Positions 15,620 through 18,326 of a DNA stretch of 18,326 nucleotides are shown here, in pieces. Location: contig JAFAYN010000237.1 in assembly GCA_019240375.1 (NCBI GenBank), positions 1 through 18,326 on the forward strand. The letters are read 5' to 3'. Position numbers and translations under genes: made by a program. The stretch is from Gemmatimonadota bacterium. GTDB taxonomy: Bacteria; Gemmatimonadota; Gemmatimonadetes; Longimicrobiales; Longimicrobiaceae. The notes below the pieces were generated by a model. That model saw only the letters and a program-made list of their open reading frames with translations, was not told the origin of the DNA and searched no databases. Within the stretch, counting starts at the first letter, position 1; the number at the start of each line of letters is the position of its first letter.

Positions 15620-17455
15620 ATGCCCAACGACCGGAACGACACCCCCGGGGCTCTCCCGCCCCCCGAAGCGCGGGAGCGCGAGGCCGCCTGGCGCCGCGGC
15701 GCGGAGCGCGCCGCGCTGGCCGCCGGGGGAGCCGCGGTCCCGCGCGACCCGTACGCCGGGGTCGCCCGCGGCGAGACCGCCGCCCGCGCCTTCGCGGCGC
15801 TCGCCGAGAACGTGCGCGACTACGCCATCTTCCTGATGGATCCGGAGGGGGTCATCACCTTCTGGGGCGAGGGCGCCCGGCTGATCAAGTGGTGGACCAA
15901 GGAGGAGGCGGAGGGCGGCCACCTCCGTCTCCTGTACCCGGACGGCGGCTCCGAGGACGGCACCGCCGAGGCGCACATCCGGGAGGCGATGGAGGAGGGC
16001 GAGTACACGGGCGAGGGGCACCGCACGCGGAGCGACGGATCCACCTTCTGGGCCGGGGTCACGCTCACCGCCCTGCGCGACGACCGCGGCGAGCTGATCG
16101 GCTTCGCCAAGGTGACGCGCGACCTCACCGCCCAGCGCGCCGCCGAAGCCGCGCTCCAGGCGGCCCACGAGCTTTCGGAGGAGGCCCGGCGGCACGCGGA
16201 GGAGGCGAGCCGCGCCAAGAGCCTGTTCCTGGCGACGATCAGCCACGAGATCCGGACGCCGCTGAACGCGGTCATGGCCTACACCGACCTGCTGGACATG
16301 GAGCTGGCGGGGCCGGTGAACGACCAGCAGCGGGGGCAGCTCGGGCGCATCCGGATGAGCAGCATGCACCTCCTGGAGATCGTGGACGAGGTGCTGGAGT
16401 ACGCGCGGACGGAGGCGGGCCGCACGGTGGTCAAGCGGACCGCCGGGCGCATCGGCCCGGCGGTGGAGGGCGCGCTCTCCCTGGTGGTCCCGCAGGCCGA
16501 CGCCCGCGGGGTCGAGGTCGTCGACGCGGTCTCGGGCTTCGCGGCGGAGGTCCCCTACTGGGGCGACGAGGAGCGGGTACGGCAGATCCTGGTCAACCTC
16601 CTTTCCAACGCCGTCAAGTTCACCCGGTCCGGCGGACGGATCACGGTGAGCGCGGGAACCGCCGCCACGCTCCCCGCCGACCCCGAGCTGGAAGGGCCGG
16701 GGCCCTGGGCGTACGTCCGCGTGGAGGACACGGGGCTCGGCATCCCCGCCGACCGGCTCGGCGCTGTCTTCGAGGCGTTCGTGCAGGCGGACATGACCCA
16801 CACGCGGCAGCACGGCGGCACGGGGCTGGGGCTCGCCATCAGCCGGCGGCTGGCCCGCCTCATGGGCGGCGACCTGACGGTGCGGAGCGAGCTGGGGGTG
16901 GGATCCACCTTCGTCCTCTGGCTTCCCGCCGCGACGGAGGAGACCCTCGCCCCGCCCGTCGCCGACGCGGAGGAGGAGCCGCCCACGCCTGGGCTCCTGC
17001 AGGAGGTCCGCGACGCCGTCCTCGCGGAGATGGAGCGGATCCTCCACGCCTTCGTGGCGCGGCTCCGCAGCGACCCCCACACCCCCAGCGCGCACCGGCT
17101 GGGCGAGGCAGAGCTGGAGGACCACCTGGCGAGCTTCCTGTCCGACACCGCGCAGACGATCGGGGGGATGGACCTGGCGGCCGGGAGCGAATCGGGGGCG
17201 TTGCGCGACGGCACCGCGATCCAGCGGACCATCGCGGAGCGACACGGGATGCAGCGCTTCCGCCTCGGCTGGAGCGAGGACGAGCTGCGGCGCGAGCACG
17301 AGATCCTGGGCGAGGAGTTCGCGGCGGCCGTCCGGCGCCGGGTTCACCCGGAGCGCGCGGCGGAGGTGGACGAGGCCATCGGGACCCTCATGACCTTTCT
17401 CGTCAGCGCGCAGCGGATCAGCATGGCCAGCCACCGGCAGGCGGCCGGGGGGTAG
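15620..17455 (+). CDS. PAS sensor histidine kinase with C-terminal RsbRD-like helical domain
   Basis: A 611-residue soluble kinase. After a 55-residue Ala/Arg/Pro-rich start come a PAS/PAC domain (about 58-172, DYAIFLMDPEGVITFWGEGA ... GFAKVTRDLTAQR), a coiled linker, HisKA with FLATISHEIRTPLNAV (His209), and HATPase with SNAVKFT (Asn330), EDTGLGIP (Asp370) and GTGLGLAISRRL (400-411). Unusually, about 150 further residues follow (455-605). They are helical and end in IAERHGMQRFRLGWSEDELRREHEIL, the signature I associate with the RsbRD N-terminal sensor domain (all-helical, globin-like), which normally sits at the N-terminus of stress regulators and kinases. No receiver is present. HisKA and HATPase closely resemble those of the kinase at 133, including GPV..QR..L.RI..SS.HL. 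No Shine-Dalgarno precedes the start. No partner regulator is adjacent on the same strand. Confidence 0.92.
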   Translation: MPNDRNDTPGALPPPEAREREAAWRRGAERAALAAGGAAVPRDPYAGVARGETAARAFAALAENVRDYAIFLMDPEGVITFWGEGARLIKWWTKEEAEGGHLRLLYPDGGSEDGTAEAHIREAMEEGEYTGEGHRTRSDGSTFWAGVTLTALRDDRGELIGFAKVTRDLTAQRAAEAALQAAHELSEEARRHAEEASRAKSLFLATISHEIRTPLNAVMAYTDLLDMELAGPVNDQQRGQLGRIRMSSMHLLEIVDEVLEYARTEAGRTVVKRTAGRIGPAVEGALSLVVPQADARGVEVVDAVSGFAAEVPYWGDEERVRQILVNLLSNAVKFTRSGGRITVSAGTAATLPADPELEGPGPWAYVRVEDTGLGIPADRLGAVFEAFVQADMTHTRQHGGTGLGLAISRRLARLMGGDLTVRSELGVGSTFVLWLPAATEETLAPPVADAEEEPPTPGLLQEVRDAVLAEMERILHAFVARLRSDPHTPSAHRLGEAELEDHLASFLSDTAQTIGGMDLAAGSESGALRDGTAIQRTIAERHGMQRFRLGWSEDELRREHEILGEEFAAAVRRRVHPERAAEVDEAIGTLMTFLVSAQRISMASHRQAAGG

Positions 17456-17513: not shown

Positions 17514-17568
17514 GCAGCGCGTTCCAGCCCCGTCGGAATCCCGCATTCCGTCGCTCCCTTCCGAAAAA

Positions 17569-17630
17569 GGCACCCCGGTCGCGAGGCCGGTCCGCAAAGC
17601 CGGGGATCTCACCGAGACCGCCCCGGTGCC
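17569..17630 (+). promoter_or_regulatory. cyclic-di-GMP-I (GEMM)-like riboswitch aptamer
   Basis: The leader folds into the GEMM layout. P1 is GGCACC (17569-17574) with GGTGCC (17625-17630). P2 is CCGGTC (17575-17580) with GGCCGG (17585-17590), capped by the GNRA tetraloop GCGA. The joining segment TCC-GCAAAGCC (17591-17601) carries the GCAAAGCC that is the hallmark of this class. P3 is GGGG-A-TCTC (17602-17610) with GAGA-CCG-CCCC (17614-17624). Known class I aptamers bind cyclic di-GMP at the three-helix junction and dock the P2 tetraloop onto P3. A deviation is that the base corresponding to the intercalating A of GGGACGCAAAGCC appears to be C, so this may be a divergent member or have altered affinity. 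It lies 51 bases before the ATG of a secreted lipoprotein, a usual kind of target. Confidence 0.65.
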
Positions 17631-17637
17631 GAAGAAG

Positions 17638-17675
17638 GGCACCCGGCGCCCGCCGGGCCACCCTTTCCGGGAAGG
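17638..17675 (+). promoter_or_regulatory. probable expression platform of the riboswitch
   Basis: GGCACC at 17638-17643 exactly repeats the 5' strand of P1, so GGTGCC (17625-17630) can pair with either copy; the alternative hairpin would have the loop GAAGAAG. Downstream, CCCGGC (17642-17647) and GCCGGG (17652-17657) form a 6-bp stem that competes for the last two bases of that copy. CCTTTCC (17662-17668) abuts GGGAAGG (17669-17675), which contains the Shine-Dalgarno GGAAGG, and can mask it. There is no strong T-tract, so control of translation start is more likely than termination. The fold is inferred by eye. Confidence 0.45.
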
Positions 17676-17680
17676 TTTTC

Positions 17681-18326
17681 ATGCGCAGACCCTGCACCCT
17701 CCTCGCCTTCGCAGGCACCCTCGCCCTCGCCGCCTGCGGCACGGATTCCACCGCGCCGCTTGCTCCCGAGCGCCTCCCGGCGGTCTTCGCCCAGGCGCCG
17801 GGAGCCACCACCGTGGTCACCGAAGAGGACGTCGCGCGGCAGCCGGAGAACACGCCGCCAACCCGGAGCTGGGTGCTGTACACCCGCAACGCCGGGAACG
17901 CCGCGTTCGTGCCAGGGCCGGGCACGCCGCCCCTGGGCGTGGGGAGCTTCCAGATGCAGACGCCCACCGGCTCCGACAAGGTCTTCCTGTTCAACTACGA
18001 CCACCTGGGCACCCGGCTGGCCGACGTGGACGGGCTGGGCTACGCCACCTACCGCTTCGCGGGGGGGACCACGTTCCAGGTGCCGTCCATCAACCTGGAG
18101 ATCGACTACAACGGGCCCAACGTAGCCGGCGGGTTCGCCACCCTGGTCTTCGAGCCGGTCTACAACACCGGCCAGGGGGCGGTCCAGCCCGGGACCTGGC
18201 AGTCGTGGGACGCGTACGCCGGGGGGAGCGCCGTCTGGTGGTCGTCGAAGCCCATCAACGGCGTGTGCGCCTTCTCGTGCTTCGTCCCCTGGAGCACCAT
18301 CGTGGCGAACAACCCGGACGCGGTCG
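17681..18326 (+). CDS. secreted lipoprotein of unknown function (3' end beyond window)
   Basis: An open frame of 215 codons with no stop before the window ends, so the gene is partial. GGAAGG lies five bases before the ATG. The N-terminus is MRR, a hydrophobic core and a lipobox ALAAC (Cys19), followed by GTDSTAP; it is therefore an exported, lipid-anchored protein. From about residue 65 it is rich in beta-strand and aromatic residues: SWVLYTRNAGNAAF, GVGSFQMQTPTGSDKVFLFNYDHLGTRLADVDGLGYATYRF, FATLVFEPVYN and GTWQSWDAYAGGSAVWWSS. This is the look of a beta-sandwich domain I have seen in secreted proteins of high-GC bacteria without assigned function; carbohydrate or surface binding is a guess. 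Two cysteines near the end of the visible part (GVCAFSCF) could form a disulfide. The riboswitch-like leader links it to surface/biofilm control. Confidence 0.8.
   Translation, partial: MRRPCTLLAFAGTLALAACGTDSTAPLAPERLPAVFAQAPGATTVVTEEDVARQPENTPPTRSWVLYTRNAGNAAFVPGPGTPPLGVGSFQMQTPTGSDKVFLFNYDHLGTRLADVDGLGYATYRFAGGTTFQVPSINLEIDYNGPNVAGGFATLVFEPVYNTGQGAVQPGTWQSWDAYAGGSAVWWSSKPINGVCAFSCFVPWSTIVANNPDAV

Follow-up and report, generated by a model that had tools for sequence, protein, structure and literature searches.

The window, by which we mean the whole 18,326-nt stretch of DNA that was analysed, carries two forward-strand genes for large PAS-containing sensor histidine kinases, one at 133-2274, which also encodes a GAF domain, and one at 15620-17455, which ends about 100 nt before a riboswitch-like leader. 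Downstream of this leader, a lipoprotein gene (MRRPCTLLAFAGTLALAAC..., 17681-18326, +) begins at ATG 17681 and runs past the contig end. A secreted lipoprotein had been placed here by the first-pass annotation, and the open reading frame, with a lipobox (LAAC) read from its sequence, agrees; it has no match in Pfam or NCBIfam, and a search for homologues in 99 genomes recovered, apart from the window's own gene, a single weak match at 33% identity. Within the leader, cmscan places a match to Rfam model RF01051 (c-di-GMP-I, or GEMM-I) at 17559-17633 (+; 38.8 bits, E 0.00014, gathering cut-off 35), 47 nt upstream of the ATG, and this is the sole Rfam match at gathering threshold across the entire window. 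The covariance-model search, which the first-pass annotation had itself proposed as a check on its GEMM-I assignment, thus upholds that assignment, as does covariation among sibling copies. Judged from its sequence, the element at 17559-17633 is very probably a genuine c-di-GMP class I riboswitch with c-di-GMP as its ligand type.

Positions within the aptamer follow the numbering in the excerpted text of PMC3764141, placed on the cmscan alignment. The P1 stem consists of a 5' strand at 17556-17563 (CCCUUC followed by CG) and a 3' strand at 17630-17639 (C93, at 17630, and G94, then an AA bulge and GAAGGG), both supported by fold models and by sibling covariation. G20, the base that sets ligand specificity (G being the c-di-GMP type), lies at 17569 and is followed by P2 (17570-17595), in which the pairs G21-C46 and C22-G45 lead through an internal loop (ACC at 17572-17574, UCC at 17591-17593) to a CCGGUC/GGCCGG helix capped by a GCGA tetraloop (17581-17584). 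The junction J2/3 retains A47, A48 and A49 (17596-17598), the equivalent of G83 (17620) stands opposite C44 (17593), and C92, the Watson-Crick partner of a ligand G, lies at 17629. According to the same excerpts, G20, C92, A47 and A48 are the key ligand-recognition bases, and all four are unchanged in the window element; the apparent replacement of the intercalating A by C that the first-pass annotation had noted is not seen, A47 being an A at 17596. The GNRA-capped P2, the segment GCAAAGCC (17594-17601) and P3 (17599-17627) are all present as it described them. In P3 of the window copy, three positions (G50, C52 and A57) are unpaired in the consensus register, and the best pairing in fold models is shifted, joining 17599-17605 with 17621-17627 over 7 bp and 17607-17610 with 17614-17617. 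Because its P3 is out of register, the window copy may be weakened.

The element is a further example of a known riboswitch class and not a new ligand class. It shares with RF01051 the three-way junction of P1, P2 and P3 with its compensatory changes, the pocket of G20, A47 and C92, the GNRA tetraloop and the C44-G83 contact, and its score passes the curated threshold. It departs from the class in having a short, register-shifted P3 and in its P2 internal loop, where ACC/UCC replaces the canonical AAA/GAC: A24 and A25 have become C, and positions 42-43 are U and C, so that neither A25 nor G42 is retained. Both are highly conserved bases in the excerpts of PMC3764141, outside the key ligand-recognition set. 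The window element is not among the gathering-threshold matches of the variant model RF03167 (c-di-GMP-I-GGC, cut-off 59), whereas siblings L001, L005 and L036 (the last inside L066) pass that cut-off; the RF03167 consensus has G at the A47 position, unlike the window element and these three siblings, which have A. The cGAMP (GEMM-Ib) riboswitches of Geobacter have a similar short GCGA-type architecture. The window element resembles them in fold, and its relatives resemble them in multi-copy and tandem use per genome (17 GEMM-I copies in G. sulfurreducens, as excerpted from PMC6456294), but its specificity base is G20, where GEMM-Ib has A (A14 of the structure in the excerpts of PMC6274999). 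In the open-licence literature, we found no paper that combines Gemmatimonadetes, Gemmatimonadota or Longimicrobium with riboswitches, whether for c-di-GMP or in general.

At least one RF01051 match was found in 31 of the 61 genomes searched, with 178 matches summed over the 61; 152 of these were studied, two of them additions from the window's own genome, and 150 could be parsed. By their P2 internal loop, the parsed matches fall into three architectures: AAA/GRC (90), ACC/YCC (37) and ACA/GYC (23). GAAA loops cap 88 of the AAA/GRC type, or 72 by a stricter stem-based reading, a gap that we presume to come from stems mismatched next to the loop. The ACC/YCC type has 33 GCGA, three GTGA and one GCAA tetraloop in both readings, and the ACA/GYC type has GCGA in 20 or 19 copies, depending on the reading; just two supposed AAA-type matches, L065 and L038 (the latter AAC/TCC), carry GCGA or GTGA loops. 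The window element belongs to the ACC type and has G20, a base that 29 of the 37 ACC-type copies carry. A strict ACC-type pattern was searched across 84,980 species, each represented by one genome; all 17 stretches recovered carry Gemmatimonadota names or that of Roseisolibacter, a member of the phylum, and viral contigs yielded none. By this pattern the sub-type looks confined to one phylum, although so strict a pattern would miss looser relatives, which could exist elsewhere. Tandem aptamers, with two RF01051 matches within a few hundred bases, occur in several relatives, at L064, L089, L092, L093, L094 and L095.

The first-pass annotation had proposed looking for covariation in homologous leaders, and compensatory changes are indeed found once P1 is placed correctly. 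Leaders of the same lipoprotein gene are too few for this (the window and its one weak relative), and the covariation is that of sub-type aptamers, aligned as 32 of the 37 ACC-type copies together with L038 (n=33; L137, L143, L147, L040 and L150 were excluded for their long P3 loops). Changes on both sides occur in 13 of the 29 P1-P3 pairs, a number reached in none of 500 shuffles; structures slid along the alignment have at most eight such pairs, a comparison that favours the drawn structure because it was drawn from the same 33 sequences. P1 accounts for two-sided changes in five of its eight pairs and is loose, with 68.6% of cells paired and the G14-C93 pair failing in 15 of the 33 siblings. 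The eight pairs of P2 form in 33 of 33, two of them with two-sided changes, and the C44-G83 contact is present in all 33 and never varies.

This placement of P1 bears on the switching element that had been described for the leader, in which GGCACC (17569-17574) pairs with GGTGCC (17625-17630) as P1 and a second GGCACC (17638-17643) competes for the same GGTGCC. All three motifs exist, but the first GGCACC is not a P1 strand: it comprises G20, G21 and C22 and the internal-loop bases on the 5' side of P2, and a GGCACC/GGTGCC stem was rejected in favour of the pairing of 17556-17563 with 17630-17639 that covariation backs. The second copy pairs with GGTGCC at a probability of 0.00-0.22 in the modelled ensembles and is probably fortuitous. 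Of 1000 dinucleotide shuffles, 546 contain a perfect downstream complement of at least 6 nt to 17620-17633, which is the level of chance, and at least 6 nt of complement to this region is found downstream in seven of the 30 sub-type leaders, that of the window included. The claimed switch rests on a wrong P1 and a chance-level repeat; a misplaced P1 easily makes a fortuitous repeat look like a switch.

The combination of G20, A47 and C92 predicts c-di-GMP as the ligand, and we regard it as highly improbable that the window element is a divergent aptamer for another ligand such as cGAMP, along the lines of the altered ligand that the first-pass annotation had raised. That idea draws on the departure of the P2 internal loop from AAA/GAC, but the change is common to 37 of the 150 parsed copies, tracks the tetraloop and mostly accompanies G20. 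It also draws on the cGAMP-type base A20, which is present in four of the nine own-genome matches, so that an altered ligand may be suspected for some siblings and not for the window element, whose three pocket bases are canonical. Among seven relatives (G009, G010, G033, G039, G000, G001 and G003), no Ser of the Hypr type was seen in the 60 of 76 GGDEF matches that were examined (30 of 44 and 30 of 32, the 16 others being without a locus): 57 have Asp, one has Asn (L224) and two are unreadable (L199 and L200). A20 riboswitches thus abound without a recognised cGAMP cyclase, the parsed matches of G009, G010, G033 and G039 having A20 only; SMODS (CD-NTase) domains above the cut-off were absent from seven genomes, with two weak sub-threshold matches. 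Among AAA-type aptamers, G48 (GCAGAGC) is found in 46 of 49 A20 copies and in one of 40 G20 copies, L002, L089 and L099 being examples of A20/G48 among GAAA-type copies. The excerpts of PMC6274999 give A at the position equivalent to 48 in the cGAMP structure, and the A20/G48 combination may reflect a pocket with compensating changes or a further class of ligand. A C at position 20, which is the specificity base of neither ligand, occurs in four of the 150 parsed aptamers (L058, L061, L150 and L094).

Decay is a separate concern, in that the fold could still be recognisable although P3 has lost its fit and the ligand binds weakly or not at all. The window's own genome (62% complete, 632 contigs) has nine RF01051 matches above the cut-off, and the window copy is the weakest, at 38.8 bits against 39.7 for one other and 44.8-70.4 for the remaining seven. 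Its G50 pair (columns 49-87) is broken in no other of the 33 aligned copies, and in the consensus register C52 and A57 also lack partners. However, the copy retains all its ligand contacts, P2 and the C44-G83 pair, the models offer the 7-bp shifted P3 in exchange, and in so fragmented a genome an assembly error is possible; we consider decay quite unlikely.

Between the aptamer and the lipoprotein gene lie a spacer hairpin (17642-17657, CCCGGC-GCCC-GCCGGG), which forms with a probability of 0.92-0.98 in unconstrained models, a CCCUUU segment (17661-17666) and a Shine-Dalgarno sequence, GGAAGG (17670-17675), 5 nt before the ATG. No terminator-like site was found on the forward strand between 17430 and 17720, and a search for a promoter-like site for the leader found none. 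CCUUCC within the P1 5' strand (17557-17562) complements the Shine-Dalgarno, and CCCUUU can pair with AAGGG of the P1 3' strand (17635-17639) or, weakly, with the Shine-Dalgarno. The further pairing that the first-pass annotation thought could mask the Shine-Dalgarno is plausible: in models without the aptamer, CCUUCC/GGAAGG has a probability of 0.79-0.94 when the transcript starts at 17550, but 0.15-0.18 when it starts at 17515. Enforcing the aptamer raises the unpaired probability of the Shine-Dalgarno from 0.04 to 0.33-0.35 from the first start and from 0.25 to 0.33-0.34 from the second, where the start codon is mostly buried either way (unpaired 0.10 free, 0.03-0.04 enforced). With the ends used for the sibling comparison, the window's Shine-Dalgarno does not open: its unpaired probability stays at 0.25 when 20 nt of upstream sequence are included and falls from 0.20 to 0.15 when 45 nt are. 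The complement itself is at chance, an equally long match occurring in 875 of 1000 shuffles, and 27% of shuffles give an equally strong duplex between the P1 5' strand and the Shine-Dalgarno.

Among siblings of the same sub-type, with start codons assigned by our own choice of open reading frame, 25 of the 28 ACC/TCC members with G20 start 31-65 nt downstream of the aptamer, and a looser terminator scan finds a U-run hairpin before the gene in one of the 28. A reading frame could be assigned to 36 ACC members; it starts within 80 nt in 30 of them, and 25 of these 30 encode lipoprotein-like products. A spacer hairpin of at least 5 bp is present in 27 of the 30 sub-type leaders, against 10.5 expected from mononucleotide shuffles. 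Pfam searches covering 20 of these 30 proteins identified six subtilases, two proteins with Ig-like domains, one with RTX repeats and one with curlin repeats, and found nothing above its curated cut-offs in the other ten. In these Gemmatimonadota relatives, the sub-type is used repeatedly for cell-surface genes, and the start spacing, spacer hairpins and secreted or surface products together fit a platform that acts on the translation of such proteins. c-di-GMP would control secreted subtilases and Ig-like, RTX and curlin proteins, which gives the phylum both an annotation and a testable regulon.

In L143, L036, L054, L066 and L050, the surroundings of the Shine-Dalgarno (GUCGAAGGAG or close to it) nearly complement the P1 5' strand (CUCCUUCCGAC); L143 and L036 rank among the leaders with the strongest complementarity. 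Over 27 leaders (the 30 less L071, L078 and L049, which are shorter, a start codon at 40-80 nt being required), the P1 5' strand forms a mean duplex of -10.3 kcal/mol with its own Shine-Dalgarno region, -9.1 with those of other leaders and -6.9 with shuffled ones, and a permutation gives 0.0054 for own-region pairing, a figure that overstates independence, the siblings being related. This pairing beats 95% of shuffles in 10 of the 27 leaders, that of the window not among them. Enforcing the aptamer (as the top two P1 pairs plus P2) in the 30 leaders opens the Shine-Dalgarno by more than 0.1 in 12 when 20 nt of upstream sequence are included and in nine with 45 nt, and closes it by as much in none and in two, respectively. 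Without constraint, the Shine-Dalgarno is paired with the P1 5' strand at a probability of at least 0.5 in eight (20 nt) or six (45 nt) leaders; with either upstream length, just four of these gain more than 0.1 in openness, and several of the opening leaders open for reasons other than this decoy. P1 itself reaches 0.5 in four of the 30 unconstrained leaders. Sibling folds, as modelled, support an ON switch for part of the ACC type and leave room for other platforms.

On balance, we read the locus, with moderate confidence, as a c-di-GMP-I riboswitch that belongs to a sub-type from Gemmatimonadota and governs how much of a secreted lipoprotein is translated, and we infer an ON switch. Translational control by the window element is probable. 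The direction is another matter: the fold models of the window's leader change with the ends that are chosen, and the chance that this copy is an ON switch is therefore about even. The ON mechanism, derived for the window copy mainly from its siblings, would run as follows. In the ligand-free leader, the P1 5' strand would pair with the Shine-Dalgarno GGAAGG; c-di-GMP would then close P1, joining CCCUUC-CG with CG-AA-GAAGGG, and the closed stem would occupy the 5' strand and free the Shine-Dalgarno, so that translation would be favoured. c-di-GMP promotes surface or biofilm functions, and an ON sign is in line with this.

The opposite sign would follow if c-di-GMP, by closing P1, released CCCUU (17661-17665) from the P1 3' strand and CCUUU (17662-17666) then paired with GAAGG of the Shine-Dalgarno, turning translation off. 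In the fold models, AAGGG/CCCUU does pair at 0.61-0.74 as long as the aptamer is not enforced and is lost once the full P1 is, and in eight of the 30 unconstrained leaders, that of the window included, the spacer takes the P1 3' strand at a probability of at least 0.5. Precedent for such a sign may lie in the canonical GAAA-type copies with G20 (L014, L015, L016, L017, L019 and others), 25 of 39 of which begin their gene 10-17 nt past the aptamer; with this spacing the Shine-Dalgarno overlaps or adjoins the P1 3' strand, so that closing P1 should conceal it, and an OFF switch would be expected, the output being inferred from the spacing. The second pairing, however, is nearly absent from the models of the window leader, CCUUU/GAAGG reaching just 0.00-0.08 in the enforced ensembles, and we hold the OFF direction to be unlikely here.

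A wider and more tentative proposal, which we think possible though rather doubtful as a whole, is that Gemmatimonadota have a phylum-specific GEMM-I architecture whose P2 loop (ACC/UCC or ACA/GCC) co-evolved with a GCGA-like tetraloop. Its ACC-type members would share a platform that turns translation on, the P1 5' strand acting as a decoy that pairs with the Shine-Dalgarno, and the canonical GAAA-type copies of these genomes, whose Shine-Dalgarno overlaps or adjoins the P1 3' strand, would have the opposite sign. If this were true, one genome would read c-di-GMP through two aptamer architectures with opposite outputs for surface genes. In two siblings, as judged by eye, a segment 3' of the aptamer complements the aptamer 5' strand over about 12 nt in L003 (160-300) and over about 8 nt in L005 (33-200), and these long complements suggest another kind of expression platform.
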